From Isoetes taiwanensis (taxonomy: Eukaryota > Streptophyta > Lycopodiopsida > Isoetales > Isoetaceae), in assembly GCA_021234155.1 (NCBI GenBank), contig JAJEKV010000110.1, positions 62,001 through 126,000 of the forward strand: a stretch of 64,000 nt of DNA, given 5' to 3'. The translations under genes and the position numbers were made by a program. The notes under the pieces are model-generated. The model was not told where the DNA came from, did no database searches, and saw nothing but the letters and a program-made list of their open reading frames with translations. Positions 1-62,797 of this stretch are shown here, one piece after another (the stretch's first letter is position 1; every line of letters starts with the position of its first letter).

Positions 1-103
1 AGCAGTAATGATCTAAGGATTAAAACATACTGATCTCGATGAGTTATGCAAGATGGAGCCCTTACTTTCTCAATTTGGACTTGGTTTGGTCCACTTTTGA
101 TGC

Positions 104-176
104 AAAACACTCACAGTACACCAGAGGGCTGACCTAAATTTTAGGTCGAGGTCCAGGCGCACTCTGTGAGTGTTTT
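104..176. repeat. ~75-bp palindromic element, unit 1
   Basis: Outer arms AAAACACTCAC and GTGAGTGTTTT, then a TGCGCC/GGCGCA-type stem, with an inner palindrome GACCTAAATTTTAGGTC. It lies about 130 bp beyond the 3' end of the H3-like gene. Confidence 0.85.
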
Positions 177-309
177 TCTTCTGTTTGGTCATCTAAGGTC
201 CAATTTTAATGAAACAAGAGGCAAATATTGGTGTTACAACCTTAATAAGAACATTATAACACATAATACTTGCATTTTAGCAAAACTTTATATTTATAGA
301 AATTTTAAT

Positions 310-1503
310 TTACAAGTAGTCAAATTCCTTCTTGATGTAACTTGCTAGCCTCATCTCCTTGTCCATGCAGGTTACTCTTTTGGCATGAAGGGTGCACGCC
401 TGGAGTATTCAAAATGTTGCACTATCTTCTGCTCCGTTGCTTCTTGGAGGGCTAGCAGCATTTCCCCTGTAACTCTCTTTGACTTGTCGAATTCGAAAAC
501 TACTTCTTTTACTAGCCTAGCAAAGGGGGCTCGGGGAATGAGAAGGCCATAGTTCTTCTGGAAATGCCGGATCTCTCGAACAGCTTTGGCAAATCGAGAC
601 TCTTGCTTCCTCTTGATCGGCTTCTTAGGTGGGAGAGGCTTCTCTGGTGGCGGCTTCAACGTGTTCTTCTTTGTAGGCCTGCCTCCTTCTACAAACTTCA
701 CCTTGTTCTCCTGGTAGTATGTATTGTACGACTCCCACATCTTCATAAAAGCCTCATGCTCCTTCAATTTCTTCTTGTAGGCCCACTCATGGTCGAGGAT
801 ATAGGACTCCCATGCCGGCCTGATTGGTTTCTTCGGGTCTTTGGCCTTGGTCCATGTGGGGTACGGGGGTGGTGCCTCCAGTTCCTGCTCTTTGACCACT
901 TCATCTTCACCAAAAGGATTGATCCTTCGGCTTCAAAGGGCTACCCTACGACCATATCGGTCCTCTTGGGGCATACCCGCGGGGAGTTCCTTGGTAAGTC
1001 CCATGCTTCATCGTCGTCGTCGTCCGGGGAAGATGAAGGTTGGTCGGGCTCTCGCTCCCTGATCACTATGCCTGTTGGTGTGTTCTTCAACTTCCTTTTC
1101 GGCAAGGCCTTGTCCTTGCCCTTGATCTTCCTCTTCTTCTCCTCCTCCTCTTTTTGTTTCCTCTCCTCCTCTGCTTCTCTCCACTTAGCAAGCTGGGCTT
1201 TCTTTGTCTTGTGCATTTTAATCCAAGCTCGAAGGTCTTCAGACTCTGTCGGCTCGGGAGATGGCTCCCTCTGCTGATCTTCTCGTCAGCAACTTGCTCC
1301 TGCTCTTCATGGGGCTCTCGTACCTCTGTTTGCTGGTGGATTAGGTCGAGCACGTCGGCCATTGAATTTTCAGAAAAATCTTCTTCATCTTCTCCCCTTG
1401 CTCTTTTTTGGGCATTTAGCAGCTTCTGTCGAGCTGCCTTGTCTTGGGTGCTGGGATTTTCACCTTTATGATACTTTCGGGCAGTCTGCTTAGTGCAAGC
1501 CAT
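310..1503 (-). pseudogene. Histone H3-like gene with long insert, copy 1 (frameshifted)
   Basis: Reads in three minus-strand frames. From 1503 it starts MACTKQTARK, the H3 tail with R2 changed to C, K4 and K9 kept and S10 replaced by Y. About 230 residues of charged sequence follow: acidic and E/K-rich runs, a DDDDDE patch and a KDPKKPIRP segment that resembles the start of an HMG box. The C-terminus is an H3 fold: REIRHFQK (alpha-N), then LLALQEAT (alpha-2) in frame to a stop at 372. Moving one base, the frame continues with HAKRVTCMDKEMRLASY (alpha-3) to TAA at 310-312. The segment from alpha-1 to alpha-2 has canonical H3 length. Breaks: a -1 step near the HEEQEQ segment (about 1290), a scrambled patch near 900-990, and a missing base before alpha-3. 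Canonical H3 is ~136 aa; this would be ~390 aa. H3 relationship is strong; HMG likeness and function are inference. Confidence 0.8.
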
Positions 1504-1605
1504 AACTTACTCGAAGTCGATCCGAAGCTCAGCCTAAAAAAATCGCCTCGATTTGAGGAGCTAACTTCTAGGAGATGAAAATCCAAATGAGGAACATTTG
1601 GGTCC

Positions 1606-1613
1606 TATTTATA
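1606..1613 (-). promoter_or_regulatory. Candidate TATA box of H3-like gene, copy 1
   Basis: TATAAATA on the minus strand, about 100 bp upstream of the MACTKQ start codon and identical in copy 2. Spacing suits a short 5' UTR. No transcription evidence is available from sequence. Confidence 0.45.
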
Positions 1614-1712
1614 AATTTTGGCAAAATTAGGTCAAATTTTAATTTGTCCAATTACTTAAAACAAGATCATATATTAGCTTAGAACATCTAGTTACTTTAG
1701 ACAAATTTAAGT

Positions 1713-1789
1713 AAAAACACGCACACATTGCGCCAGAAGGCTGACCTAAATTTTAGGTCGAGGTCCAGGCGCACTCTCTGAGTGGTTTT
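1713..1789. repeat. ~75-bp palindromic element, unit 2
   Basis: Same family as unit 1, upstream of the H3-like gene. One arm is altered to AAACACGCAC. Confidence 0.85.
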
Positions 1790-1928
1790 GCATTTTTTAC
1801 TAAAATTTTAGGATTTCTAAGCATATTCTTAGGGGTATGACATGCAATTCTAACTAAAACCTATCTTAAAAGTCGATCTAGCCTATTAGTTTGCTCAAAT
1901 TCATTAAGTTTCAAGGTGTTTAGAGCAG

Positions 1929-2003
1929 AAACACTCACACAGTGCGCCAGAGGCCTGACCTAAATTTTAGGTCGATGTCCAGGTGCACTCTGTGAGTGTT
2001 TTT
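1929..2003. repeat. ~75-bp palindromic element, unit 3
   Basis: Same family and orientation as units 1 and 2. The region between units 2 and 3 and up to 2200 holds no gene I can recognise. Confidence 0.85.
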
Positions 2004-2209
2004 CCAATTTTGGCCAATTTTGATCAAGTTTCTTAGGTTTCATAGTTTCAATTTTTCTAACTGTTACTAGCTTAGCATATCCTACAAAAATGAGAAAAAA
2101 ATTTCCCACTTTTCGAGGTTTGTTGGACTGTTATTTCCAAGACTGGATTCTACTTTGTTAGTACTATTGGAAACATGGCCAGTGCCTGATCTTGGTCTCC
2201 AAGATCATT

Positions 2210-2420
2210 GCTCTGATACCACTGTGACGTCCCCTACTCATATACGGTGCTCCCACCGTATACAACCAGGAGTTCATCCCCTATATCAGCTTCATGCTGA
2301 CACAAGGCCCTCCATATATCACTGCAACCTTGATGATCCATCATGTCCAGTGGGAAGAATGAAGGTGTCATTTACCCTGTCTCCCTCAGGGCCTACCTAG
2401 CTGCGGAAGCGTAAACATAT
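2210..2420 (-). mobile_element. LTR-retrotransposon remnant: PBS plus LTR edge, copy 1
   Basis: GCTCTGATACCA at 2210-2221 is the minus-strand tRNA-iMet primer-binding site. Two bases on, TGTGACGTCCCC begins a likely LTR (TG start). No matching second LTR or polyprotein is attached, so the right limit is approximate. Confidence 0.5.
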
Positions 2421-2638
2421 GTAAGTATACAATACATCAAGCACAACATGACCATCTCGAATGATGGCTCACCACATAATCTGCAACAACAGAGATCAGA
2501 CCATCACATAAGGGAATCCTATCCAAGCTCAGCGGTCGCAACCAGAGTGGACTCTTGTCGCCACACGAAAGAAAAAATGCTCTCAATCTCATAGGTGGGC
2601 GGACACAGCTCATGAGAATGAAGCCGTGGAGGCCTGGT

Positions 2639-2799
2639 ACAATTTGAAATAAACAACCTATTAAAGACCTGTAAGGGACATTTTCCATTTGTCTCCTTTC
2701 ATTTGCATTTTGTGGACACATGAGTTCAGAGATTCTATGTCCAGAGGCTATAGAAGAATTTGCAATATTACAATCTTTCATTCCAAATCTCTCAACCAT
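2639..2799 (-). pseudogene. Copia reverse-transcriptase fragment, copy 1
   Basis: Translates to about 54 residues beginning MVERFGMKDC and containing VPYRSLIGCL. This matches the Copia RT segment that normally reads RFxMxxC...PY...GSLMY. It has no upstream RT or downstream RNase H. It directly abuts the DUF7869-like fragment, so two transposons have been joined here. Confidence 0.65.
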
Positions 2800-3280
2800 A
2801 CTTTCTTTGGTTTAGTAACAAAGTTTTGTTGTTCCTGTTCCTGTTCCTGTGCACTTCTATTGCAGTTGATGCAAGTGTATCCTTGAGTTGAATGCAAGTG
2901 TTGCACTTTGAGAAGGGCATGTGTTGCAGGACACTCACGTTTGAGAAGTGAGTGCTCCATAACTTGCTGAAATGTGATTGAGAAAGAGGCCTACCTCCAG
3001 TAGTTTCCAGGATGGAGTTGACCTCTTTAAGGCACTCTTTTTGGATATAATGTTGTGGCAACACCCTTTGCACCACTCGCACACCGTGCTCGTTCACCTT
3101 CGACTTGTGGGGCATAGATTGAGACATGTATCTCACAAAGCTCTCGAAGACCGCAATGGCCGCGGAGAGTATTTGCTCTAGGTTTCAAAGTGAGTGCATT
3201 GCCATGTTGGAACAAGTCGCGCCCTTTTCTAACCTGCCCAAAGATCTATAGAATGAAGACTTGCTCATGCCAAGAATCCA
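2792..3280 (-). pseudogene. DUF7869-like transposon protein fragment, copy 1 (frameshifted)
   Basis: Same sequence as the open frame at 12808-13323, but broken near 3160-3240 by short patches (for example CCGCGGAGAG in place of CCGTGAGAG). Keeps the SHFSKLW and FSKCNTCIQLKD motifs. These recall the zinc-knuckle-like region ahead of DUF7869 domains in plant and oomycete transposon proteins. Family call is tentative. Confidence 0.4.
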
Positions 3281-3423
3281 TCTCAATGCTCTCATACATA
3301 CCTTCAATCCCTCAATTGATATAGTAACCTTCCTGTGTTTTCATCATAGCTGGAATTCCCACACAAGGAGTAGATGAAATTAATTCTATCTTTCTGATGT
3401 TGTCCAATGTATTGGGACCTTAT

Positions 3424-4369
3424 CACTACAAGAGAAGGGGTCCATTAGTGTCACCAAAACGTCACCACAATATTGAAAAGTGTACACTATGACATTACTA
3501 GTGACATTTTTACAGAAGTGATGCTACCCCGTGGGATTCACCTCTATTGTAGGTATATATGCCATGTGTTCCTTAGGTTGCCAAAAACCCATTGTATATG
3601 AAAGTGCCATATGAAAACCCTTTGTATAACGACTACATTATTTGTAGAAGAATGCAGCCCATATCCTATAATTACTTGCTCAAAACACTTTTACTTGACA
3701 ACCCCTTCCATACATATACGATATCTCTATTATTTTTATATATATAATAATATATATTATCATAGTCATATCATATTATCAAAGAATCTCAACAGTAGAA
3801 GCTCACCAAAAATGACGGGCCCTTACAATATGAATACGAATCGAACACTGGCGCCACCACTCCCTCTGGTACCCATACGACATTCAAACTATAAAAACCT
3901 TATATTTTTTTTTTTAATTATACACGCACCGTGAGAGGCAATTAAAAACCCATTTGGTGCACTCACATGTTTCATACCCCATAATCTAGGTGAACCCCCC
4001 GGGGATGCTACAAATGCCACAATTTGTGTCACCTATAGCCTCACTCTTTGTGTCACCAACAATGTCAGTAACTTGGTTACGACACTATAGATGTTGCTAT
4101 TAGCATCAAGTATAGCGTCACCAGTTGTTGCACATATAGCATCAGTGTTAGTGTCAGTGCCCACTTGTGACATTATAGGTGGTGATATTAGCATCATATA
4201 TAGTGTCGATGGTTGTCACACATATAACATCGGCCTCGGTGTCATTGTCCATCGGTGACATTATATGTGTTGTTATTAGCATCAAATATAGTGTCAGTAG
4301 TTGCTACACATATAACATGAGTGTTAGTGTTAAGACCCACTTGTGACATTATAGGTGGTGTTATTAGCA
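3424..4369. mobile_element. CACTA-like element, left end and subterminal repeats, copy 1
   Basis: Starts CACTACAAGAGAAGGGGTCC, a typical CACTA/EnSpm terminus. It is followed by many degenerate units around GTGTCA, TGACATTATA and TTAGCATCA between about 4020 and 4369, as expected of CACTA subterminal repeats. No transposase is visible. The matching right end is absent from copy 1 because the duplication stops first. The 3300-4020 stretch holds no gene. Confidence 0.65.
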
Positions 4370-6657
4370 TCTTATATTATAATGTTATAGCGTAAGTATG
4401 TCATGAATGAAACCCTAATTTGGATGGTTGAGATCATCTGATTTCATTTGGAGGTCGAGATTTATCGCTGACGACTTCCTCCACCATGATTGGCCATGGT
4501 CTAATGTCCAAGAGGAAAGGGAAAAGGAAAAGGGAGGAGAAAATGGCAAAGTGAAAGGCAAAAAGGCACGGGTAAAAGGGAAAGAAAGAAAGGAAAAAAG
4601 GAAAGCGAAAAGAGCACGAAAAAGGGAAAGGAAAATAAAGAAAAAAAGGACACTATGAAAAGGAGAAGATGGAAAGGATGAGGATAGGAGTAAAAGGGAA
4701 GTTAAAAAAGGGATGAGGAAAAGGGTAGAGAAAAGGGAAGGAAAAGGAAAAGGGAAAAGCAAAGAAAAGGCAAAGGGAAAGGAAAAGGTAAAAAAAAAGG
4801 GGAGGAGGAGGGAGGAAAAGGAACACTTTGGGAAAGGGGAAGAGTAAAAGGTGGGGAAAGAAGAAAAAGGGAGGAGATAAAGGCAAAGTGAAAGGCAAAA
4901 AAGGCACGGATAAAAGGGAAAAGGAAATAGAAAATAGCACAAAAAAGAGAAAGGAAAAGTAAGAGAGAAAATAAAGGAAAAAATGACACTATGAAAAGGA
5001 GAAGAGGGAAAGGGTGAGGACAAGAGTAAAAGGGAAGGGAAAAAAGGGGATGAGGAAATGGGTAGAGAGAAAGGAAGGAAAAAGGAAAAGGGAAAAGGAA
5101 AGGAAAATGGAAGGGGAGAGGAGGAGGGAGCGAAAAGGGACAGTGGGAAAGGGGGAGAGAAAAAAGGTGGCAAAAGGAGAAAAAAGGAAGGGAAAAAAGA
5201 CACAAAAAAAAAGGAAAGAGAAAAAGGGAGGAGAGAAGGGATGGAAAGGGTAAAAGGAAAAAGCGAGGGGAGGGGCAAAAGGGAAAAAGAGCATGGGGAA
5301 AAGAGGAAGAGAAAAGAAGGAGAGAAGCGGAAAAAAGGAAGAGAAAGGAGGGAGGAAAGGGGAAAGGGAAAAAGAAAAGAACAAATGAGGGAGGAAAGGG
5401 AAAGAAAAAGACTACGAGAAAAAGGGAAGAGGGAAAGGGTGGGCAAAGGGAAGGAATAAATGGCAATGTAAAAAGGGGAAGAGAAATAAAGGGAAGGGAA
5501 AAAAAGACATGAGAAAAAGAAAGGGAAAAAAGAAATAAAAAGGAGGCGGAAGAGAGAAAAATGGAAGGGAAAAAGGGCACGAAAAAAAGCGGAATAGAGA
5601 AAGGGTCGGGAGAGGAGGAAAAGGGAAGAGAAAAAGGCTATTGGTAAAGGGGAAGGGGGAAAGGGAAGCAAAGGGGATGGAATGGGAGAAAAGAAAAATA
5701 AAATAAGGTAAAATGAAAAAGGGATTGTGAAAAGGGGAGGGGATAGAAAAAGGGAAAAGCAAGGAGGTTGAAAATGGAAAAGGCAAATGTGAAAAAAGTG
5801 GAAGCAAATGGAAAAAGGCAAAAGGGAAAAAACGGGAGGTAAAATGGAAAAATAGAAAGGGGAGGTGAATAAAAAGGAAGAGCAAAATAGAAAAAGAAAA
5901 AGAGAAGGAAAAAAGGAAAAAGGAGGGGGAGGAGGAAAAAGGTGAAGAAAGGGGAAAAGGGGGCGAAAAAAGAGCATGAAAAAATAAAAGAGAAAAGGGA
6001 CATGGCAAAAAAGGGAAGAGGGAAAGGGTGAGGAAAGGGAAAACCAAGGAAAAATGGACATGGAAAAAGGGAAAGAGGGAAAAGAAAAAAAGGAGGGGGG
6101 GGAAAGGAAGGGCAAAGGGCACTAGAAAAAAAAAAAAGGAAGACCTAATTTTGGGCAAAAGAGGAAAAGGGAAGGAAAAAGGGGAAAAAGAAAAGGTGGG
6201 TAGAAGAAAGGGAAAAGGGAAAGCAGAAAGGAAAACTTAGAAAGAAGGGCACGAGGAACAGGGGAAGAGGGAAATGGGAAAAGAGAGGGGAAAGGGCACA
6301 AGGAAAGGGAAAAAGGGCAACCACAAATTGGAGAAAAGGGAAGGGAAAAATAGAAAAGGAAAAATGGGAAGCGTAAACAAAAAAAAAAAGAAAAAGAAAA
6401 AGAGGAAATGGAATAATGGAAAAATAAAAAAGTAAATTGAAAATGTTAAAAGGAAAAGGGGCAAGGGAAAATAGGAAAAAAAAAATAGTAGACAAAGGCA
6501 AAATGAAAAAGGAAAACGGAAAAGATAAGGGAAGTTCAAATGTGGTCGAATGCTCTTGATTATCAATTTTAAAAACAAGAATCCATTTAACAATTGCTCC
6601 AAAGATATCATTCCACGGTTTTAGCTATGCCTAGCAACGCCCGGGCACCTTAACTAG
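4370..6657 (+). mobile_element. Non-autonomous Helitron with purine-tract body, copy 1
   Basis: Begins TCTTATATTATAATG right after an A and ends CTAG right before a T, the Helitron A/T insertion signature. The 3' end carries a hairpin (GCCTAGC, loop, GC-rich arm; clearer in copy 2) 10-11 bases before CTAG. About 130 bp of ordinary sequence at the 5' end are followed by roughly 2 kb of almost pure G and A on the plus strand, built from degenerate GGGAAAA-type units. No RepHel protein is present. Long minus-strand frames of F, P, S and L are translation of the tract, not genes. Confidence 0.8.
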
Positions 6658-7718
6658 TGACGTTATTAATGTTCAACTTCATAGTTCATAACAATCTGAC
6701 AATATTCACATATTAAATTTTGAATTAATATTTTGACATTAGTGTTTCACCACAACATTTTGAGCATGTAGCTATGATCTTTATTTATACTAAGGATGAT
6801 AACTCGGTTCATCATTTACAATGTCCCACCTCATGCCCGACCTCACAAAGAGTAATAGACTTTGACTATAGCCTCACCTTAAAACCTGCTCAGATGAACA
6901 CTCTACTCCCACTCAGGTTTCCTATGAACAAGCACCGTGTTGTTAAATTTTTAGATATTTTCGTTATAATAAAAGGTTACAAACATTGGATTATTATTGC
7001 GACGCATTTCCATTGCGATCAAAAGATGTGCATACTTCAACTTATGCCCAAGCAATCTTTGAAACCGTTATTATAGTCAAATATAATAGCATCTTTAGTG
7101 TCACACGTTTTGTCAATATTTGAGTGGTCATTAGCATCCTTTGCAATCGATCCGACTCCTCACCATCTCTGCTATGGCATGATCAAATCGGCCGATTCCT
7201 CCTTCCTCAACTTCGGTTTTATCTCTATTCTCTTCTCGGGTTAAGCATTCACCCGATGATGGTTTTCAGAATGAACAGCCCATTCTTTGGCTCCAAGGTA
7301 AGCAATCGGATCACGGCTTAGGGTATGGCAAATGAGATGGAGCAGACGGCTATAGGGTTATGGCGGAAGATGAGGGGTTTTGCAGGCTCTATCTTCCAAG
7401 CATGGGCAGTTTTATGGCAAGGGACCAGCAAATCCGGCACTGGGCAAAGGGCTTCTAAGTTCTTCCTGATTTATAATTTATAGCAAAACTACAGATAAGA
7501 GGTTGAGGTTGAGATAAAAACTACAGGAGCAGAACGAAACTATAGCACGAGGTTGCATTCTGCCAGCGGAGTTGGAAGCATCATATTGGACACAAATTCC
7601 TCTTATCTGTGCTTGCTATTGTTACATTTCAAATTTTTAATGCCTTCAGAAGTTGTTGCAGGTGCAAAGATGGTCTGCCTATGTCTTTGTTCTACTGTGG
7701 TAAGAATGGGAAAAATAA
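6658..7718. other. CACTA interior: no confirmed gene, copy 1
   Basis: AT-rich sequence with scraps that look like exons (for example a Cys-rich reading CCRCKDGLPMS near 7660) but no continuous frame. At about 7045-7075 it holds a degraded version of the Helitron 3' terminus seen intact at 17080-17117. Confidence 0.4.
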
Positions 7719-10027: not shown

Positions 10028-10157
10028 GGCCCTAAACTGGTCAAAAACTAGCTCAAACAGAATGATCTAAGGATTAAAACATACTGATCTCGATGAGTTA
10101 TGCAAGATGGAGCCCTTACTTTCTCAATTTGGACTTGGTTTGGTCCACTTTTGATGC

Positions 10158-10230
10158 AAAACACTCACAGTACACCAGAGGGCTGACCTAAATTTTAGGT
10201 CGAGGTCCAGGCGCACTCTGTGAGTGTTTT
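10158..10230. repeat. ~75-bp palindromic element, unit 5
   Basis: Copy-2 equivalent of unit 1. Confidence 0.85.
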
Positions 10231-10363
10231 TCTTCTGTTTGGTCATCTAAGGTCCAATTTTAATGAAACAAGAGGCAAATATTGGTGTTACAACCTTAAT
10301 AAGAACATTATAACACATAATACTTGCATTTTAGCAAAACTTTATATTTATAGAAATTTTAAT

Positions 10364-11520
10364 TTACAAGTAGTCAAATTCCTTCTTGATGTAACTTGCT
10401 AGCCTCATCTCCTTGTCCATGCAGGTTACTCTTTTGGCATGAAGGGTGCACGCCTGGAGTATTCAAAATGTTGCACTATCTTCTGCTCCGTTGCTTCTTG
10501 GAGGGCTAGCAGCATTTCCCCTGTAACTCTCTTTGACTTGTCGAAGTCGAAAACTACTTCTTTTACTAGCCTAGCAAAGGGGGCTCGGGGAATGAGAAGG
10601 CCATAGTTCTTACGGAAATCTTGGGATCTCTCGAACAGCTTTGGCAAATCGAGACTCTTGCTTCCTCTTGATCGGCTTCTTAGGTGGGAGAGGCTTCTCT
10701 GGTGGCGACTTCAACGTGTTCTTCTTTGTAGGCCTGCCTCCTTCTACAAACTTCACCTTGTTCTCCTGGTAGTATGTATTGTACGACTCCCACATCTTCA
10801 TAAAAGCCTCATGCTCCTTCAATTTCTTCTTGTAGGCCCACTCATGGTCGAGGATATAGGACTCCCATGCCGGCCTGATTGGTTTCTTCGGGTCTTTGGC
10901 CTTGGTCCATGTGGGGTACGGGGGTGGTGCCTCCAGTTCCTGCTCTTTGACCACTTCATCTTCACCTGTCGGCTTCAAAGGGCTACCTGTGTCCTCCTGG
11001 GAGTTCCTTGGTAAGTCCCATGCTTCATCGTCGTCGTCGTCCGAGGAAGATGAAGGTTGGTCGGGCTCTCGCTCCCTGATCACTATGCCTGTTGGTGTGT
11101 TCTTCAACTTCCTTTTCGGCAAGGCCTTGTCCTTGCCCTTGATCTTCCTCTTCTTCTCCTCCTCCTCTTTTTGTTTCCTCTCCTCCTCTGCTTCTCTCCA
11201 CTTAGCAAGCCGGGCTTTCTTTGTCTTGTGCATTTTAATCCAAGCTCGAAGGTCTTCAGACTCTGTCGGCTCGGGAGATGGCTCCCTCTGCTGATCTTCT
11301 CGTCAGCAACTTGCTCCTGCTCTTCATGGGGCTCTCGTACCTCTGTTTGCTGGTGGATTAGGTCGAGCACGTCGGCCATTGAATTTTCAGAAAAATCTTC
11401 TTCATCTTCTCCCCTTGCTCTTTTTTGGGCATTTAGCAGCTTCTGTCGAGCTGCCTTGTCTTGGGTGCTGGGCTTTTCACCTTTATGATACTTTCGGGCA
11501 GTCTGCTTAGTGCAAGCCAT
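10364..11520 (-). pseudogene. Histone H3-like gene with long insert, copy 2 (frameshifted)
   Basis: Same architecture as 310-1503: MACTKQTARK start at 11520, charged insert, H3 fold, and alpha-3 in a shifted frame. Here the insert is open from 11233 to about 10620, giving the best reading of DLPRNSQEDTGSPLKPTGED and the HMG-like KDPKKPIRP segment. One extra base at about 10615-10625 breaks the fold just after REI, where copy 1 is intact. The -1 step after the tail and the missing base before alpha-3 are shared by both copies, so they predate the duplication or are a systematic artefact. Each copy thus fills a gap in the other. Confidence 0.8.
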
Positions 11521-11622
11521 AACTTACTTCGAGTCGATCCGAGCTCAGGCGCCTAAAAATCGCCTCGATTTGAGGAGCTAACTTCTAGGAGATGAAAATC
11601 CAAATGAGGAACATTTGGGTCC

Positions 11623-11630
11623 TATTTATA
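11623..11630 (-). promoter_or_regulatory. Candidate TATA box of H3-like gene, copy 2
   Basis: TATAAATA on the minus strand about 103 bp upstream of the start codon, as in copy 1. Confidence 0.45.
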
Positions 11631-11729
11631 AATTTTGGCAAAATTAGGTCAAATTTTAATTTGTCCAATTACTTAAAACAAGATCATATATTAGCTTAGA
11701 ACATCTAGTTACTTTAGACAAATTTAAGT

Positions 11730-11806
11730 AAAAACACGCACACATTGCGCCAGAAGGCTGACCTAAATTTTAGGTCGAGGTCCAGGCGCACTCTCTGAGT
11801 GGTTTT
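11730..11806. repeat. ~75-bp palindromic element, unit 6
   Basis: Copy-2 equivalent of unit 2. Confidence 0.85.
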
Positions 11807-11945
11807 GCATTTTTTACTAAAATTTTAGGATTTCTAAGCATATTCTTAGGGGTATGACATGCAATTCTAACTAAAACCTATCTTAAAAGTCGATCTAGCC
11901 TATTAGTTTGCTCAAATTCATTAAGTTTCAAGGTGTTTAGGCGAG

Positions 11946-12019
11946 AAACACTCACCGAGGTCTTGAGGCCCCGACCTAAATTTTAGGTCGATGTCCAGGT
12001 GCACTCTGTGAGTGTTTTT
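11946..12019. repeat. ~75-bp palindromic element, unit 7
   Basis: Copy-2 equivalent of unit 3; the left stem is altered by a short patch (CACCGAGGTCTTGAGG). Confidence 0.8.
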
Positions 12020-12225
12020 CCAATTTTGGCCAATTTTGATCAAGTTTCTTAGGTTTCATAGTTTCAATTTTTCTAACTGTTACTAGCTTAGCATATCCTA
12101 CAAAAATGAGAAAAAAATTTCCCACTTTTCGAGGTTTGTTGGACTGTTATTTCCAAGACTGGATTCTACTTTGTTAGTACTATTGAAAACATGGCCAGTG
12201 CCTGATCTTGGTCTCCAAGATCATT

Positions 12226-12436
12226 GCTCTGATACCACTGTGACGTCCCCTACTCATATACGGTGCTCCCACCGTATACAACCAGGAGTTCATCCCCTAT
12301 ATCAGCTTCATGCTGACACAAGGCCCTCCATATATCACTGCAACCTTGATGATCCATCATGTCCAATGGGAAGAATGAAGGTGTCATTTACCCTGTCTCC
12401 CTCAGGGCCTACCTAGCTGCGGAAGCGTAAACATAT
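12226..12436 (-). mobile_element. LTR-retrotransposon remnant: PBS plus LTR edge, copy 2
   Basis: Copy-2 equivalent of 2210-2420, with the same minus-strand tRNA-iMet primer site followed by TGTGACGTCCCC. Confidence 0.5.
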
Positions 12437-12654
12437 GTAAGTATACAATACATCAAGCACAACATGACCATCTCGAATGATGGCTCACCACATAATCTGC
12501 AACAACAGAGATCAGACCATCACATAAGGGAATCCTATCCAAGCTCAGCGGTCGCAACCAGAGTGGACTCTTGTCGCCACACGAAAGAAAAAATGCTCTC
12601 AATCTCATAGGTGGGCAGACACAGCTCATGAGAATGAAGCCGTGGAGGCCTGGT

Positions 12655-12815
12655 ACAATTTGAAATAAACAACCTATTAAAGACCTGTAAGGGACATTTT
12701 CCATTTGTCTCCTTTCATTTGCATTTTGTGGACACATGAGTTCAGAGATTCTATGTCCAGAGGCTATAGAAGAATTTGCAATATTACAATCTTTCATTCC
12801 AAATCTCTCAACCAT
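12655..12815 (-). pseudogene. Copia reverse-transcriptase fragment, copy 2
   Basis: Copy-2 equivalent of 2639-2799, with the same RFGMKDC and VPYRSLIGCL motifs and no flanking RT or RNase H. Confidence 0.65.
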
Positions 12816-13323
12816 ACTTTCTTTGGTTTAGTAACAAAGTTTTGTTGTTCCTGTTCCTGTTCCTGTGCACTTCTATTGCAGTTGATGCAAGTGTATCCTT
12901 GAGTTGAATGCAAGTGTTGCACTTTGAGAAGGGCATGTGTTGCAGGACACTCACGTTTGAGAAGTGAGTGCTCCATAACTTGCTGAAATGTGATTGAGAA
13001 AGAGGCCTACCTCCAGTAGTTTCCAGGATGGAGTTGACCTCTTTAAGGCACTCTTTTTGGATATAATGTTGTGGCAACACCCTTTGCACCACTCGCACAC
13101 CGTGCTCGTTCACCTTCGACTTGTGGGGCATAGATTGAGACATGTATCTCACAAAGCTCTCGAAGACTGCAATGGCCGTGAGAGTATTTGCTCTAGGTTT
13201 CAAAGTGAGTGCATTGCCATGTTGGAACAAGCTGTGCCCTTTTCTAACCTGCTCCCAGTATCTATAGAATGAAGACTTGCTCATGCCAAGAATCCATCTC
13301 AATGCTCTCATACATACCTTCAA
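12808..13323 (-). CDS. DUF7869-like transposon protein fragment, copy 2 (open)
   Basis: Open frame of 171 residues. It has an N-terminal helix-rich part (SKSSFYRYWEQVRKG), a middle ending in VLPQHYIQKECLKEV, then SHFSKLWSTHF and KCNTCIQLKD. The order, a short helical block, a 'W...F/P' motif, then a C-x-x-C-x-x-LK element, recalls proteins with DUF7869, a domain of likely transposon origin; the catalytic part is missing. It stops where the Copia RT scrap begins. I am unsure of the family, and the frame is probably a truncated remnant rather than a working gene. Confidence 0.4.
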   Translation of the reverse strand: MKVCMRALRWILGMSKSSFYRYWEQVRKGHSLFQHGNALTLKPRANTLTAIAVFESFVRYMSQSMPHKSKVNEHGVRVVQRVLPQHYIQKECLKEVNSILETTGGRPLSQSHFSKLWSTHFSNVSVLQHMPFSKCNTCIQLKDTLASTAIEVHRNRNRNNKTLLLNQRKYG

Positions 13324-14385
13324 TCCCTCAATTGATATAGTAACCTTCCTGTGTTTTCATCATAGCTGGAATTCCCACACAAGGAGTAGATGAAATTAAT
13401 TCTATCTTTCTGATGTTGTCCAATGTATTGGGACCTTATCACTACAAGAGAAGGGGTCCATTAGTGTCACCAAAACATCACCACAATATTGAAAAGTGTA
13501 CACTATGACATTACTAGTGACATTTTTACAGAAGTGATGCTACCCCGGGGGATTCACCTCTATTGTAGGTATATATGCCATGTGCGTTCCTTAGGTTGCC
13601 AAAAAACCCATTGTATATGAAAGTGCCATATGAAAAACCCTTTGTATACGACTACATTATTTGTAGAAGAATGCAGCCCATATCCTATAATTACTTGCTC
13701 AAAACACTTTTACTTGACAACCCCTTCCATACATATACGATATCTCTATTATTTTTTATATATATAATAATATATATTATCATAGTCATATCATATTATC
13801 AAAGAATCTCAACAGTAGAAGCTCACCAAAAATGACGGGCCCTTACAATATGAATACGAATCGAACACTGGCGCCACCACTCCCTCTGGTACCCATACGA
13901 CATTCAAACTATAAAAACCTTATATTTTTCTTACGTATACGGTACCAGAGAGGCAATTAAAAAACCCATTTGGTGCACTCACATGTTTCATACCCCATAA
14001 TCTAGGTGAACCCCCCGGGGATGCTACAAATGCCACAATTTGTGTCACCTATAGCCTCACTCTTTGTGTCACCAACAATGTCAGTAACTTGGTTACGACA
14101 CTATAGATGTTGCTATTAGCATCAAGTATAGCGTCACCAGTTGTTGCACATATAGCATCAGTGTTAGTGTCAGTGCCCACTTGTGACATTATAGGTGGTG
14201 CTATTAGCATCATATATAGTGTCAATAGTTGTCACACATATAACATCAGTCTCAGTGTCATTGTCCATCAGTGACATTATAAGTGTTGTTATTAGCATCA
14301 AATATAGTGTCAGTAGTTGCTACACATATAACATGAGTGTTAGTGTTAAGACCCACTTGTGACATTATAGGTGGTGTTATTAGCA

Positions 14386-16698
14386 TCTTATATTATAATG
14401 TTATAGCGTAAGTATGTCATGAATGAAACCCTAATTTGGATGGTTGAGATCATCTGATTTCATTTGGAGGTCGAGATTTATCGCACGACTTCCCTCCACC
14501 ATGATTGGCCATGGTCTAATGTCTGAAGAGGAAAGGGAAAAGGAAAAGGGAGGAGAAAATGGCAAAGTGAAAGGAAAAAAGGCACGGGTAAAAGGGAAAG
14601 AAAGAAAGGAAAAAAGGAAAGCGAAAAGAGCACGAAAAAGGGAAAGGAAAATAAAGAAAAAAAGGACACTATGAAAAGGAGAAGATGGAAAGGATGAGGA
14701 TAGGAGTAAAAGGGAAGTTGAAAAGGGGATGAGGAAAAGGGTAGAGAAAAGGGAAGGGAAAAGGAAAAGGGAAAAGCAAAGAAAAGGCAAAGGGAAAGGA
14801 AAAGGTAAAAAAAAAGGGGAGGAGGAGGGAGTGAAAAGGAACACTGGGAAAGGGGAAGAGTAAAAAGGTGGGGAAAGAAGAAAAAGGGAGGAGATAAAGG
14901 CAAAGTGAAAGGCAAAAAAGGCACGGATAAAAGGGAAAAGGAAATAGAAAATAGCACAAAAAAGAGAAAGGAAAAGTAAGAGAGAAAATAAAGGAAAAAA
15001 TGACACTATGAAAAGGAGAAGAGGGAAAGGGTGAGGACAAGAGTAAAAGGGAAGGGAAAAAAGGGGATGAGGAAATGGGTAGAGAGAAAGGAAGGAAAAA
15101 GGAAAAGGGAAAAGGAAAGGAAAATGGAAAGGGAAAAGGGGAGAGGAGGAGGGAGCGAAAAGGGACAGTGGGAAAGGGGGAGAGAAAAAAGGTGGCAAAA
15201 GGAGAAAAAAGGAAGGGAAAAAGACACGAAAAAAAAGGAAAGAGAAAAAGGGAGGAGAGAAGGGATGGAAAGGGTAAAAGGAAAAAGCGAGGGGAGGGGC
15301 AATGTTTCAAAAAAGAGCATGGGGAAAAGAGGAAGAGAAAAGAAGGAGAGAAGCGGAAAAAAGGAAGAGAAAGGAGGGAGGAAAGGGGAAAGGGAAAAAG
15401 AAAAGAACAAATGAGGGAGGAAAGGGAAAGAAAAAGACTACGAGAAAAAGGGAAGAGGGAAAGGGTGGGCAAAGGGAAGGAATAAATGGCAATGTAAAAA
15501 GGGGAAGAGAAATAAAGGGAAGGGAAAAAAAGACATGAGAGAAAAAGAAAGGAAAAAAAAAAGAAATAAAAAGGAGGCGGAAGAGAGAAAAATGGAAGGG
15601 AAAAAGGGCACGAAAAAAAGCGGAATAGAGAAAGGGTCATTGGAGAGGAGGAAAAGGAAGAGAAAAAAAAAGGCTATTTGTAAAGGGGAAGGGGGAAAGG
15701 GAAGCAAAGGGGATGGAATGGGAGAAAAGAAAAATAAAATAAGGTAAAATGAAAAAGGGATTGTGAAAAGGGGAGGGGATAGAAAAAGGGAAAAGCAAGG
15801 AGGTTGAAAATGGAAAAGGCAAATGTGAAAAAAAAAGTGGGACTTAAATGGAAAAAAGGCAAAAGGGAAAAAACGGGAGGTAAAATGGAAAAATAGAAAG
15901 GGGAGGTGAATAAAAAGGAAGAGCAAAATAGAAAAAGAAAAAGAGAAGGAAAAAAGGAAAAAGGAGGGGGAGGAGGAAAAAGGTGAAGAAAGGGGAAAAG
16001 GGGGGCGAAAAAAGAGCATGAAAAAATAAAAGAGAAAAGGGACATGGCAAAAAAGGGAAGAGGGAAAGGGTGAGGAAAGGGGAAAACCGAAGGAAAAATG
16101 GACATGGAAAAAGGGAAAGAGGGAAAAGAAAAAAGGAGGGGGGAAAAGGAAGGGCAAAGGGCACTAGAAAAAAAGGAAGACTGAAGGGCTGGGCAAAAGA
16201 GGAAAAGGGAAGGGAAAAGGGGGAAAAAAGAAAAGGTGGGTAGAAGAAAGGGAAAAGGGAAAGCAGAAAGGAAAACTTAGAAAGAAGGGCACGAGGAACA
16301 GGGGAAGAGGGAAATGGGAAAAGAGAGGGGAAAGGGCACAAGGAAAGGGAAAAAGGGCAACCACAAATTGGAGAAAAGGGAAGGGAAAAATAGAAAAGGA
16401 AAAATGGGGAAGCAGAAACAAAAAAAGAAAAAGAAAAAGAGGAAATGGAATAATGGAAAAATAAAAAAGTAAATTGAAAAATGTTAAAAGGGAAAAGGGG
16501 CAAGGGGAAAATAGGAAAAAAAAAATAGTAGACAAAGGCAAAATGAAAAAGGAAAACGGAAAAGATAAGGGGAAGTTCGAAATGTGGTCGAATGCTCTTG
16601 ATTATCCAATTTTAAAAACAAGAATCCATTTAACAATTGCTCCAGTATATCATTCACAGTTTCTAGCTATGCCTAGCAACGCTGGGCACCTTAACTAG
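14386..16698 (+). mobile_element. Non-autonomous Helitron with purine-tract body, copy 2
   Basis: Starts TCTTATATTATAATG after A and ends TTAACTAG before T, with hairpin GCCTAGC-AAC-GCTGGGC near the 3' end. The body from about 14530 is nearly all A and G on the plus strand. Small block indels separate it from copy 1, as expected of slippage in a simple tract. Confidence 0.8.
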
Positions 16699-17079
16699 TG
16701 ACGTTATTAATGTTCAACTTCATAGTTCATAACAATCTGACAATATTCACATATTAAATTTTGAATTAATATTTTGACATTAGTGTTTCACCACAACATT
16801 TTGAGCATGTAGCTATGATCTTTATTTATACTAAGGATGATAACTCCAGTTCATCATTTACAATGTCCCACCTCATGCCCGACCTCACAAAGAGTAATAG
16901 ACTTTGACTATAGCCTCACCTTAAAACCTGCTCAGATGAACACTCTACTCCCACTCATGGTTTCCTATGAACAAGCACCGTGTTGTTAAATTTTTAGATA
17001 TTTTCGTTATAATAAAAGGTTACAAACATTGGATTATTACTGCACGCATTTCCCATTGCGATCAAAAGATGTGCATACT

Positions 17080-17117
17080 TCCAACTTATGCCCAGCAATG
17101 CTGGGCACCGTTACTAG
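17080..17117 (+). mobile_element. Orphan Helitron 3' terminus
   Basis: GCCCAGCAATGCTGGGC hairpin followed by ACCGTTACTAG and then T, the same 3' end as the Helitron at 29159. No convincing 5' terminus was found between 16699 and here (TCTTTATTTATAC at about 16818 is a weak candidate). Confidence 0.6.
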
Positions 17118-18700
17118 TCAAATATAATAGCATCTTTAGTGTCACACGTTTTGTCAATATTTGAGTGGTCATTAGCATCCTTTGCAATCGATCCGACTCC
17201 TCACCATCTCTGCTATGGCATGATCAAATCGGCCGATTCCCTCCTTCCTCAACTCGGTTTTATCTCTATTCTCTTCTCAGGTTAAGCATTCACCCGATGA
17301 TGGTTTCTGCAGAATGAACAGCCCATTCTTTGGCTCCAAGGTAAGCAATCGGATCTGGCTTAGGGTATGGCAATACAGATGGAGCAGACGGCTATAGGGT
17401 TATGGCAGAAGATCGGGGTTTTTGCAGGCTCTATCTTCCAAGCATGGGCAGTTTTATGGCAAGGGACCAGCAAATCCGGCACTGGGCAAAGGGCTTCTAA
17501 GTTCTTCCTGATTTATAATTTATAGCAAAACTACAGATAAGAGGTTAAGGTTGAGATAAAAACTACAGGAGCAGAACGAAACTATAGCACGAGGTTGCAT
17601 TCTGCCAGCGGAGTTGGAAGCATCATATTGGACACAAATTCCTCTTATCTGTGCTTGCTATTGTTACATTTCAAATTTTTAATGCCTTCAGAAGTTGTTG
17701 CAGGTGCAAAGATGGTCTGCCTATGTCTTTGTTCTACTGTGGTAAGAATGGGAAAAATAAACTGGAAACTGAAGGATGCACAGCCATGAAATTGCCTCTA
17801 TAAGTTGATTTCGTTGTGCAAAGCTCTCGGATTCCAATGGGATCCAATGTCGAATGTAGTGCTAACTGCCTGTTCTATTGTTGGTGCAAAGGAGACAGGT
17901 TGATTTGGATTCAAATATGAGCAACCCCTGCCTCAAGTGCAGCAGAAACCAGGTTTGTGGTTGTTGGGGTCGGCCTTGTGACATTACATGCAGATGGACA
18001 TGTTTAGAGTAGCCAGAAGCTATATTGCATGCCAATATATTGTGTGAGATAGCATAGATTGTGTGTTGGATATGTGAAGAAGTTTGAAGTAAATTCATTA
18101 TTCTAGCTCGTCTTGACGTCAATGCCTTGAGATACATCATATCTGTAAAGTAAGTGTGAATGTGCTAGGTGCTTGTTTGCTGGTTGTTATTGCATGGAAA
18201 TATATGTTAGATAGATTTCGATTCAAATGTGGGTAGCCCATGCCTTAGCTACAGCAGAAGGCAGCTTTGTGGTTCTGGCCAAGTGCAGGTCCTTATTTCT
18301 TGCAATGGATTGGATGCAATTGCAGGTTTTTGTTACCATGTCATGTGTATGTTCAGTTGCAACCAAACTTTATGTGAGCCATTTGAAACAGTTGGAAAAC
18401 GAAATCCTTACACATGGACTCCAATTATTCCAGCAAGTGTGCAGCTTGGAGAAGGTAGATCTGACTTCTACACTTATAGTTATATATATAGGGATTTCAT
18501 ATTCTATGGAGTAAATCTCACATTTAATGTGCTTAAGGGACTCATTATACAAAGAGGCTGTCTGAATTTACAGTTGTTTTGTTCTTTTACAAACATGGTA
18601 TATCATGTGGAATGTTATTTTGGGAAACACTGGCTCTGCTTATCCTATCCTGGCACTGGAAGGGGGTTCAAATCCCCTTAATTCCATCTAGCTTGACACA
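17118..18700 (+). other. CACTA core: Cys-rich gene scraps, no intact gene
   Basis: Several plus-strand stretches read like related Cys-rich exons: CCRCKDGLPMSLFYCGKNG (~17700), SNPCLKCSRNQVCGCWG (~17920) and GSPCLSYSRRQLCGSGQ (~18230). The last two share the frame DSN(M/V)xxPCLxxSRxQ(V/L)CG, so they look like duplicated modules of one captured gene. Stops and frame changes separate them. At about 18650 a GGGTTCAAATCCCC B-box-like string occurs without a clear A box. I do not recognise the parent gene. Confidence 0.35.
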
Positions 18701-23722: not shown

Positions 23723-23910
23723 TATAATGTTGTGTAATGGACCGCACCCTAAATCGAACGGTCGAGGATTTGATTGACCAATGGTGGAGATGATGTGTGC
23801 GTGTCTTCAACTAAAATATAATGTTGTGTAATGGACCGCACCCTAAATCGGACGGTCGAGGATTTGATTGACCAATGGTGGAGATGATGTGTGCGTGTCT
23901 TCAACTAAAA
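23723..23910. repeat. 94-bp tandem duplication in Helitron 5' region
   Basis: Two units starting TATAATGTTGTGTAATGG and ending CTTCAACTAAAA, nearly identical. Confidence 0.85.
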
Positions 23911-25665
23911 TTTCATCTTGACTATGGCTTCAATATGAAAGGGAAAAGGAAAAAGGAAAAGGAAAAGGAAAAGGGAAAGGGAAAGGGAAAGGGAAAGGGA
24001 AAGGGAAAGGGAAAGGGGAAGGGGAAAAGGGAAAAGGGGAAGGGAAGGGAAAAAAAAAAAATGATGAAAGGGAAAAGGGAAAAGGGAAACGGAAAAGGGG
24101 AAGGGAAAAGGAAAACGATGAAAGGGAAAAAGGAAAAGGGATAAAAAGACATGAAAGGGAAAAGGGAAAAGGAAAAGGGGAAGGGAAAAAAAAAAAGATG
24201 AAAGGGAAAAGGGAAAACGGAAAACGGAAAAGGGAAAAGGGAAAAGGGAAAAGGAAAAGGGAAAGGGAAAAGGAAAAACGATGGAAGGGAAAACTGAAAC
24301 GGAAAAGGGGAAGGAAAAGGAAAAATGATGAAAGGGAAAAGGGAAAAGGGAAAAGGAAAAAGGGAAAGGGAAAAGGAAAACGATGAAAGGGAAAAGGGAA
24401 AAGGGAAAAGGAAACTGGGAAGGGAAAAGGAAAAACGATGAAAGAGAAAAGGGAAAAGGGAAAAGGAAGAGGGGAAGGGAAAAGGAACAACGATGAAAGG
24501 GAAAAGGGAAAAGGGAAAAGGGAAAGGGAAAAGGGAAAAGGGAAAAGGAATAAAAGAAAGGTAAGAGGAAAAAGGAAAGAGAAGGAGAAAAGGAAAATGG
24601 AAAGATAAAAGAAAATAGAAAAAGGAATAGAATAGGCGAGGGGGAAAGGGAACGGAAAAAAAGAGCAATCATTGAGAAGGGTAAGAAGTAAATGTGAGAA
24701 AAGGAGAAAAAGGTAAGGGAAAATAAGAAAAGGTTGCAAAGTCTATGGGAAAAAGAAAAGTAAAAAGGAAAAGAGAGGGGGAAAAGGGAAAAAGAGAACT
24801 TGGGAAAATGGAATGAGAGAAAGAGAAAAAAGGAAAGGGCGTGAAAAAAAGGGAAAAGAGAAAGGGTGAAGAAAGAGAAAAAGGAAAGCAAAAAGAGCAT
24901 CGAGAAAAAGGAAGAGGGAAAGAATGGAAAAATGAGGAAAAGGTGGGGGAAAGTAGAATAGACAAAGGGTAGGGAGCAAGGAATACGAAAAGAGGAAAAG
25001 AGGAAGGAGAAAAGGGCACGAGAAAAAAGGGAAGAGGGAAAGGGTGAGGAAATAGAAAAAAGAAAGGGAAAAAGAGTATGGGAAAGGGAAAAAAAGAAAA
25101 AGAAACAAGAAAGGAGAAAGTGGAAAGGGGAAAAAGGGGAAGAGGATGGGAAAGAAGGAAAAAGGGTACATAAAAAAGATTGAGAAAAGGGAATGGAAAG
25201 AGGCATATGAAAAGCGAAGGAAAACGGGAAAGGGAAAATGTAAAGGAAGGGGAAAGAGAAAGGAAAGGGAAAAAGGGAACATTTAAAGCAAAAGGGTGGG
25301 GAATGTATGAAAAGGGAATGGAAAGTTGAAAGGAAAAGGGAAGCTTAAAAAGGAGAAGGAAAACAAAAAAGAGCATGAGGAAAAGAGGAGAGAGAAATGG
25401 GAAAAGAGATGGGGAAAAGGGCACGTGATCAAGAGGAAGACGGTGGGGAAAGGAAGAAAAGGGCACATGAAAAGGTAAGCAAAAGAGAACGAAAAAAATG
25501 CATGAGAAACGGGAAAGAGAAAAGGAAAAGGAAAAGGAAAAGGAAGAGGAAGGGGAAAAGGAAAGGGAAAGAGAGTAGTGGAAAAATGGGAAGAGCGGGG
25601 AAAGATAAAAAGAAAGGGAAAAAGCTGATAAGAAAAAGAGAAAGAAAAAAAGGGGAAGGGGAAAG

Positions 25666-25881
25666 CAGGGCTCGAAATTAGGGGGGTTCGACCCTTAAAA
25701 ATCCGGCCATTCCAAAACATTTCCGATAGCCAAAAAATATTCCCGGCATTTTTTCAGGCTATTTTTAGAGAAGTTTCTAAGGATTTTCGGGAAAGTACAA
25801 TATAATTTCATGTATTTCCGGCAGCCTTAAATGTAAGCAGGCATTTTTAATGGTTAGGGCAAATTCTAATTTCGAACCCTG
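25666..25881. mobile_element. hAT-type MITE with perfect 8-bp TSD
   Basis: 216 bp with termini CAGGGCTCGAAATTAG and CTAATTTCGAACCCTG (one mismatch). The flanks GGGGAAAG at 25658-25665 and 25882-25889 are identical. CAGGG tips and an 8-bp duplication are hallmarks of hAT elements. No coding capacity. Confidence 0.85.
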
Positions 25882-25990
25882 GGGGAAAGGGAAGGCAAAG
25901 GGAGGGAGAAGGGGGTTAGAAAAAAAAAGGGAGAATAAAAAAAGAAAGAAATTAAAGGTTCCTAATTTATGTTTTAATTTATTTAATTTA

Positions 25991-26021
<31 letters not shown>

Positions 26022-26475
26022 GGTACCATTACTAGTCTATCTTATATTATAAAGTTATAGCGTAAGTATGTCATGAAGCAAACCCTAATTTGTATGGCTT
26101 AGATCATTTGATTGCATCCATAGGCCGTGATTTATTGCACAACTTCCCACCACCGCGATTGGCCATGCTTTGATCTCTTAAGAGGAAAGGGTAAAGGAAA
26201 AGGGAGGAGGAAAGAGGAAAAGTGAAGGGCAAAAAGGCATGGACAAAAGGGAAAGAGGGAAAGGAGAAAAGGGCAGGGGAAAAGGGAAAGAGAAAGAAAA
26301 AAAAAGAAAAGGGTGGGGAAAAAGAAAGGCATGGGAAAAGGAAAAAGGGGGGAAAGGAAAAAAGAGAAGGAAAGGGAGAATGTGAAGGGCAAAAAGGCAC
26401 GAGGAAAAGGGAAAAAAAAAAGAGAATGCAAAAAAGGGAAGGAAAAAAGGCATGGGAAAAAGGGAAAAGGGAAAA

Positions 26476-28178: not shown

Positions 28179-29159
28179 AAAAGAAAAAAGGGAAGGAATA
28201 AATGGCTTGGGAAAGGGAGTAGAAAACGAAAGGGAAAAATGAAGGGAAAAAGGGCACCATCAAAAGGGGAAGAAGGAAAGGGTGGGAAAAAGAGGAGAAA
28301 GGAAATAGGGGAACTGGAAATGGAAAAGGGAAATGAAAAAATAAAAAGGGAGGGGGAAAGTGGAAAAAAGAACCCGGGAAAAAAAGCAAGAGGAAAGGGG
28401 AAGAGGGATAGGGGAAAAGGGAGGGGGGAAAGGGCACGAGAAAAGGGAAGAGGAAAGGGTGAACAAAGGGTAAAAGGGAAGCGAAAAGAGCATGCAAATG
28501 GAAGGGAAACAAGGCATGGGGAAAAGGGGACGAGGGAAAGAAAGAGCAAGAAAATTAGAAAAGAGAAGGAAAGAATGTCATGGGAAAAGGGAAAGGAAAA
28601 AAAAAAAAATAGAGAGAGAGGAAAAGGGGAAGGAAAGGGTGGGGAAAAGGAGGAAAATGGAAGGGAAAAAGGGAACGAAAAAAGGTGGGGAAAAGAGGAA
28701 TAGCGAAATGGGAAAAGAGAAGGGTAAAAGGCATGAGAAAAAAGGGCGAAAAAGAAAGGGAAAAAAAAAGCCAAGAAGAGCATGGAAAAAAGGGAAAAAG
28801 GAAAAGAAAAAGAGGAAAGGGTGGGAAAAAGGAAAAAAAAGGAAAGAATCCACCAGGAAAAGGTTTGGGAAGAAGGGAAAGGGAAGGGCAACATAGGGGG
28901 AAACAAGGATGTGAAAAAAAAGAAGAAAAAAAAGAAAGAAAGAAAGGAAGCATGCAAGGAAAATGAAAAAAAAAAGGAAAAGGAAAAAAGGAAGTGTGAA
29001 AACGAGGAAAAGGAAAAAGAAAAGAGTAAAAGCAGCGTAAAGAATGGTATCGAATATGTTAACGATGGAGTATTTTCGGGTTATTCTCTCATTGCTATTG
29101 TGTATCATTTACAGGGTCTCAGTCAACTTATGCCCAGCAACGCTGGGCACCGTTCCTAG

Positions 29160-50800: not shown

Positions 50801-51007
50801 TTGAGTAGTATTGCACTCACTGAAAATCCTATTCATCACAGAAGGTCAAAACACATATCCATACATCATCACTTCACCAGGGAAAAAGTGGTCGATGGAA
50901 CTATAGTGATGGAATACATACCTACAGATGAAATGCCAGCTGAGGGTGCTCCGCGAATCGGCTCCGCCAATGCTCAATCTTCCTCCTATCAAACTGTTGT
51001 TGCTTAA
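50801..51007 (+). pseudogene. Copia RNase H tail remnant, unit 4
   Basis: Begins abruptly within SSIALTENPIHHRR and continues to YIPTDEMPAEGAPRIG and the stop. Everything upstream is missing; the join with unique sequence is near 50803. Confidence 0.75.
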
Positions 51008-62795: not shown

Positions 62796-62797
62796 GG

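Follow-up and report, generated by a model that had tools for sequence, protein, structure and literature searches.

The stretch of Isoetes taiwanensis DNA analysed here (the window: 64,000 nucleotides, positions 62,001 to 126,000 of contig JAJEKV010000110.1, assembly GCA_021234155.1) contains two decayed copies of an open reading frame in which the N-terminal tail and the fold of histone H3 are separated by a charged stretch (Table 1). A first-pass annotation, made from the sequence alone and silent on the strand, had pointed to this split, and it is real: all of its features lie on the minus strand, Pfam Histone matches were obtained at 375-932 minus (E 1.3e-14) and 10429-10710 minus (E 3.2e-9), and H3 chains in the PDB match the window H3 protein at E ~1e-10, so the H3 likeness of these frames is not a matter of chance. 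The reading also survives the HMM search of the C-terminal part that had been named as its possible refutation, since Pfam finds the histone fold there. Measured as nucleotide distance from the tail to REI of alpha-N, the separation amounts to ~298 codons in copy 1 and 286 in copy 2, and the insert length of ~230 residues first given is thus too low. As had been noted, alpha-3 stands in a frame other than that of alpha-2, but the frame is broken more than once. Part of the insert had been thought to recall an HMG box; this identity was rejected for want of profile support, with no HMG_box match in four window pieces at E ≤ 1 or in three intact relatives (family B, see below) at E ≤ 10. The two copies are 98.3-98.7% identical across ORF and leader and are both contained in a duplication of ~7.7 kb, the units of which are 97-99% identical, and therefore do not represent independent observations; both copies share the breaks of frame within the N-terminal part and those separating alpha-2 from alpha-3, which are therefore older than the duplication.

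Table 1. Coordinates of the window copies, of the duplication that contains them and of three related elements elsewhere in the genome
Feature	Position	Strand	Remark
Copy 1, decayed H3-carrying ORF (family B)	310..1503	minus	frame broken at several places
Copy 1, H3 N-terminal tail MACTKQTARK	1474..1503	minus	MARTKQTARK in intact relatives
Copy 1, insert segment PPPYPTW...KDPKKPIRP...YYQENK	702..872	minus	'HMG-like' in the first-pass annotation; no HMG_box match
Copy 1, H3 fold alpha-N, alpha-1, alpha-2	402..602	minus	Pfam PF00125 E 1.3e-14
Copy 1, alpha-3 and stop	310..399	minus	frame other than that of alpha-2
Copy 1, primer-binding site TGGTATCAGAGC	2210..2221	minus	one base past LTR end
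Copy 1, 3' part of 5' LTR	2223..2532	minus	extent given by similarity to L053 LTR
Copy 2, same broken ORF in duplicate	10364..11520	minus	
Copy 2, H3 tail MACTKQTARK	11491..11520	minus	
Copy 2, alpha-N, alpha-1, alpha-2	10456..10657	minus	frame change between alpha-N and alpha-1
Copy 2, alpha-3 and stop	10364..10453	minus	frame other than that of alpha-2
Copy 2, primer-binding site TGGTATCAGAGC	12226..12237	minus	
Copy 2, 3' part of 5' LTR	12239..12548	minus	by correspondence with copy 1, offset 10,016
Duplication unit 1	3..7718		
Duplication unit 2	10058..17760		
L012 element (family A), contig C908	5' LTR 3262130-3263772; 3' LTR 3250538-3252173		LTRs 97% identical; 13.2 kb in total
L013 element (family A), contig C1056	6917656-6930873		LTRs spanning 13.2 kb; H3 at 6920978 inside
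L053 element (family B), contig C1042			LTR parts 11.05 kb apart, 97% identical, best partner; H3 ORF (one stop) between

The window protein was searched against the genome (1,658,258,908 bases in 1,110 contigs), the best 150 of 8,255 candidates being scored and 150 matches listed, and the 30 best matches (L029-L058, where L029 is window copy 1) are referred to here as family B. Three of them, L034, L046 and L055, encode intact proteins of 429, 415 and 402 amino acids, each in a single frame that runs from MARTKQTARK through the charged insert and the PPPYPTW segment to the full H3 fold. An intact paralogue elsewhere in the genome, for which a search had been proposed, is thereby at hand, and tail and fold do not come from separate genes. 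The family B product consists of the H3 tail, ~270-295 extra residues and the H3 fold. Of the H3 N-terminal tail ARTKQTARKSTGGK, the first ten residues carry at most three substitutions in 24 of the 30 loci, and at several positions the codon varies silently while the residue is unchanged; the sequence then diverges, reading KYRPGE after K9 where host H3 has KSTGGK. Similarity of the fold to host H3 extends mostly to ~50 of 92 residues (range 0.37-0.57). PF00125 matches L034 at E 1.3e-24, and a family B profile matches H3 in the PDB at E 3.3e-27, as a comparison of sequences only. Searching IMG/VR gave no confirmed relatives of the family B protein or of the ORF2 of family A described below.

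The surroundings of these reading frames are those of LTR retrotransposons. The primer-binding site TGGTATCAGAGC, which we assign to initiator tRNA-Met, stands behind an LTR end and ahead of the H3 ORF in each of the two window copies and, allowing at most one substitution, in 23 of the 30 family B loci (L029 included) and 13 of 20 loci of a second family, A; the intact family B ORFs lie ~0.7 kb behind LTR and primer-binding site. The LTR part of copy 1, delimited only on its 3' side, is 86% identical to the LTR of L053 over 337 bp, primer-binding site included. Genome-wide, with at most one mismatch, LTR-primer-binding-site junctions number 1,937 for family B and 2,084 for family A (a tally of junctions, not of H3 ORFs), while the reversed-pattern control gave 0 for both. 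A further reading frame, ORF2, is present in 26 of the 30 family B loci, and in the elements the H3 ORF is positioned between the primer-binding site and ORF2. LTR pairs enclose the H3 ORF in the three elements of Table 1; in L012 both H3 (3260112) and a reverse transcriptase within a 1,385-aa frame (3254894) lie between the LTRs, and the two best places found with its LTR were its own 5' LTR and the 97% partner 11.6 kb away on the same strand. Inside the window no match to ORF2 or gag-pol was obtained, the region downstream of copy 1 lying mostly beyond it. The window copies are dead members of a lineage of LTR retrotransposons whose first ORF is a histone H3 gene. A transposon-captured histone had been among the readings of the first-pass annotation and is borne out by the ~2,000 junctions per family and by the relatives that lie beside ORF2; on the same grounds an unusual host variant or a domesticated gene, also proposed there, is unsupported for the family, though the window copies themselves are without ORF2. 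In L024 two LTR copies, 94% alike, were observed, one before H3 and ORF2 and the other after ORF2; the second is followed by a stretch resembling a primer site and perhaps belongs to a tandem or nested element.

The second family emerged from a search of the genome with PF00125, in which the best 150 of 8,705 candidates were scored. Fifteen of these are full-length H3, of which eight were read, all canonical; the remaining 135 match the fold only, the match starting at profile position 4-25 and ending at 122, and their open frames reach up to 494 aa. Twenty of the 135 places, chosen for long open frames, constitute the family A loci studied (L009-L028). Here the product joins another N-terminal domain of ~300-360 residues to a near-canonical H3 fold that shares 78-85 of 96 residues with host H3 (PF00125 E 1.9e-43 in L010). 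Among 19 readable starts, 17 are without MART or MANT, and a tail-based role therefore cannot hold for the whole lineage. The locus L028:3128-4309 starts MARTKGTK and L022:3140-4372 starts MANTKS, perhaps remnants of a former family A H3 tail. Compared with known structures, the family A insert gave no match at E ≤ 1.

The order of genes in family A, pieced together from several loci, is H3, ORF2, ORF3, gag, protease, reverse transcriptase (RT), RNase H and the start of integrase, and is of the Ty3 type. ORF2 was matched in 19, gag-pol in 16 and ORF3 in 13 of the 20 loci; gag matches Ty3_capsid (E 2.9e-15) and the RT is nearest to the Ty3 RT 4ol8 (E 4.6e-60). In L010, gag (Ty3_capsid), protease, RT, RNase H and the integrase zinc domain follow H3, the integrase catalytic core lying beyond the sequence read. 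When the best 150 RT matches are considered, an RT lies 2.5-5.9 kb downstream on the same strand at 18 of the 135 A-type H3 places, with ~0.07 expected by chance, 0 upstream and 1 on the opposite strand. The LTRs have TG...CA ends, beginning with TGTGACGTTCC (5' LTR start TGTGACG) and ending with CGTCACA. None of the best 150 of 8,792 chromodomain candidates falls, by eye, within two mapped family A elements. ORF2 and ORF3 appear in L009-L028 as two further conserved ORFs of the element between H3 and gag; one ORF2 and two ORF3 stretches gave no Pfam match at E ≤ 1, and ORF2 found only two matches among the known structures of the PDB, neither of them significant (E 0.34-0.35). Gag-pol of the family A type was matched in none of the 30 family B loci, which end inside ORF2; placement of family B in the Ty3/gypsy superfamily is suggested by its kinship with A.

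This kinship is seen at two places. The LTR ends of the two families are 66.7% identical over 519 bp (E 2.6e-42, L053 versus L010), and their ORF2 profiles match with 93% probability (E 3.2e-7, 19% identity); LTR and ORF2 are, on this evidence, of common ancestry in A and B. A tree of the folds, with 19 loci as family B rows, recovers A as one group (95/97) and B as another (100/100), with bootstrap not settled; as it consists of three groups (host, A and B) and lacks an outgroup, the tree decides neither for one nor for two captures. Two separate captures of host H3, one per family and at the same place in related elements, would agree with the inserts of A and B, between which no similarity was detected on comparison, and with a fold that is close to host H3 in A and far from it in B. 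Common descent of LTR and ORF2, together with the same order of ORFs, would however make a single capture, with later replacement of the insert, the simpler history, and we regard two captures as somewhat unlikely. They would in any case be compatible with the function considered next.

The pattern of conservation within the fold bears on what a histone encoded by a retrotransposon might do. We presume from the nucleosome structure that C110, H113, D123 and L126 belong to the H3-H3' bundle and that R49, R69, R83, K115, R116, V117 and T118 contact DNA. In family A the sampled H3-H3' residues are kept in 20 of 20 folds (A127 in 19), and the named bundle and DNA-contact residues in 19-20 of 20. 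In family B, where 19 of 23 aligned rows were used, R49, R83, K115, R116, V117, C110, D123 and L126 are kept in all 19 and R69, T118 and H113 in 17-18, whereas R63 (P or H), K56 (R), K79 (D) and N108 (R or T) are lost and R72K, L65A, F84V and Q85T are found in addition; because of these losses and substitutions the fit of the family B fold to the nucleosome is less certain. Centromeric H3 (CENH3) has a longer loop 1; loop 1 of both A and B aligns to host H3 without a gap and so lacks this feature.

Such residue conservation points to an H4-pairing chromatin protein, which we consider a reasonably likely role of the retrotransposon H3. The product would pair with host H4 through its retained core and H3-H3' surfaces and would then enter chromatin, or coat the cDNA of the element. 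The fused domain would be brought there with it and would take the place of the normal tail, since the usual tail is missing from most of A and lies some 300 residues off in B. One option is that the integration complex is thereby tethered to nucleosomes; another, that copies of the element receive nucleosomes which tail-based silencing by the host misreads. Host enzymes that need the sequence context after K9 may not act on the family B tail (KYRPGE). It is conceivable, if short of probable, that the lineage has long been its own supplier of histone, forming element-specific nucleosomes with host H4 and so escaping silencing or steering integration; an anti-silencing role in particular, as against targeting or packaging, is offered as a tentative suggestion. 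Alternatively, the element H3 might serve mainly to condense or protect nucleic acid of the element itself, whether inside the particle or as cDNA, without deposition in host chromatin. The position of the ORF ahead of ORF2 and gag and the many retained DNA-contact residues would suit such packaging, but the near-strict conservation of the H3-H3' four-helix region in A exceeds the apparent needs of a general basic packaging protein, and we think this quite unlikely.

Whatever the product does, strong purifying selection has acted on the histone fold as the elements grew in number and diverged. By the method of Nei and Gojobori, dN/dS of the fold is 0.036 in subset A1 (10 loci), 0.020 in A2 (7 loci) and 0.057 in B (18 loci), exact values that are probably too low, the loci having been selected for open frames or a high score, a choice that depresses dN. 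The corresponding mean dS is 0.94, 0.52 and 0.89, and copies free of selection would scarcely have remained so similar at this level of silent divergence. Values for the insert are 0.12-0.13 in A and, in B, 0.12 for the PPPYPTW part (13 loci) and 0.27 for the N part (3 loci); for ORF2 they are 0.083 in A (15 loci) and 0.268 in B (12 loci, where dS is lower, at 0.28), and for gag 0.114 (A only, 10 loci). Among the parts of the element measured, the fold is under the tightest constraint, ahead of ORF2 and, in A, of gag. Reading the columns of the fold test in the other two frames, a control that does not extend to ORF2 and gag, gave dN/dS of 1.0-9.2. Pairs too diverged at silent sites were left out, so that 71 of 190 pairs were kept for the A fold (41 of 45 in A1 and 21 of 21 in A2), 135 of 153 for the B fold, 46 of 105 for A ORF2, 31 of 45 for A gag and 66 of 66 for B ORF2; L022, L025 and L028 enter the all-A test and neither A1 nor A2. 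The B fold test comprises 18 of the 30 loci: 23 passed the motif step, and L030, L033, L036, L042 and L050 were dropped for a frameshift, truncation or extra codon.

These measurements bear directly on passive transduplication, under which H3 would be a freely decaying passenger, as in the hAT transposons of Pseudocercospora. The broken window copies are what a passenger would look like, and a fungal precedent exists (PMC6710886, in its accessible text). The fold dN/dS of 0.02-0.06 at a mean dS of 0.5-0.9, lower than that of gag (A) or ORF2 even if the sample is not random, the stop-free frames in many of the copies listed and the same ORF position in two diverged families nonetheless render it very improbable. 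A host histone variant family, or a domesticated element gene, multiplied by duplication would be in keeping with the conserved H3 fold and tail and with the origin of the window's two copies by duplication, but can be dismissed almost entirely in view of ~2,000 upstream LTR-primer-binding-site junctions per family, LTR pairs around the H3 ORF and linked gag-pol (A), although one single domesticated descendant may exist elsewhere in the genome. There is very little doubt, in our judgement, that this H3 is encoded by retrotransposons, having been captured and selected as a gene of the element, and is neither a passenger nor a host variant. The reading as a whole, an H3 that is the first ORF of LTR retrotransposons, is under selection and acts with host H4 in chromatin or on cDNA, would appear probable.

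Core histones normally come from the host; in this genome a core component of host chromatin may be provided by a genomic parasite. The element H3 shares with canonical and centromeric H3 the fold, many core residues and, in B, the first ten tail residues; it differs from them in the ~270-295 extra residues between tail and fold (B), in the replacement of the tail (A) and in being encoded by an LTR retrotransposon. Chromoviruses, which carry a chromodomain on the integrase, read histone marks. An element protein acting on chromatin, as in chromoviruses, is only suggested for the Isoetes elements, which, unlike them, carry the histone itself. A retrotransposon H3 under tighter selection than gag (A) offers a natural test of whether parasites manipulate chromatin by providing components of the nucleosome, and of the extent to which a nucleosome can dispense with the H3 tail. 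It also serves as a warning that many 'histone H3' matches in such a genome may be genes of elements.

The nearest precedent found is the capture of H3 by fungal hAT DNA transposons. In the accessible text of two reports, transduplicated H3 is described for such transposons in the Dothideomycetes Pseudocercospora fijiensis and Pyrenophora tritici-repentis (PMC6710886, PMC3538342); in the former all H3 copies but the original are reported to be inactivated by RIP (PMC6710886), and in the latter 23 of 26 copies are apparently coding (PMC6710886, PMC3538342). There, as in Isoetes, histone H3 of the host was taken up by a mobile element and amplified, but the fungal vehicle is a DNA transposon, whereas in Isoetes it is an LTR retrotransposon in which H3 is joined to new domains, with ~2,000 LTR-primer-binding-site junctions per family and strong purifying selection. 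Plant Ty3/gypsy elements have acquired CHROMO, PMD, AIR1, AlkB, G-patch, KOW, ArgoL2 and B3 domains (PMC9289625, accessible portion), and some carry additional ORFs (PMC7264820, likewise). The Isoetes elements resemble them in the Ty3-type gag-pol and in keeping an acquired domain through replication; according to the same portions (PMC7264820, PMC9289625) additional ORFs lie mostly between pol and the 3' LTR, whereas the Isoetes H3 precedes ORF2 and gag. No histone gene was seen among the additional ORFs or domains of LTR elements in the available parts of PMC7264820, PMC9289625 and PMC6338049, where the word 'histone' occurs 0 times in the first and twice in the second (histone marks, histone demethylation), and the text of the Isoetes sinensis genome paper has no word beginning with 'histone' (PMC10541799). 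Our literature search, which had subscription papers largely and preprints wholly outside its scope, so that absence from print is unproven, found, among the results listed, no LTR retrotransposon encoding a histone and nothing joining Isoetes taiwanensis with histone H3. The published I. taiwanensis repeat library, as described in the accessible part of its source, left out repeats with BLASTx matches to plant proteins (PMC8566536), a filter that would tend to remove H3-carrying elements.

Several other repeats are present in the window. Palindromic repeats of ~75-90 bp, in which AACACTCAC...GTGAGTGTT surround TTTAGGTC motifs, occur in or near the leader of the H3 element at 104-177, 1714-1789 and 1929-2002, and also at 10158-10231 and 11731-11806, and look like tiny insertions of the MITE type. 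A separate repeat near the LTR remnant, at 2856-3424 (by offset) and 12872-13440, is young and abundant, being 95-97% identical in 38 of 41 genome places among the matches listed for 12872-13440; an LTR search with window positions 12230-14400 mostly caught this unrelated repeat. Long purine-rich, strand-asymmetric GA tracts at 4415-6620, 14500-16700 and 23900-29100 give rise to spurious long ORFs on the opposite strand. At 58953-62822 the minus strand has ORFs that, by eye, resemble a Ty1/copia polyprotein; a TGGTATCAGAGC site occurs there at 62797-62808. Fragments similar to a copia-type RNase H, again recognized by eye, are repeated in both orientations at 33255-39886 and 50803-51740, and among them a 167-bp unit is repeated in tandem at 38587-39554.
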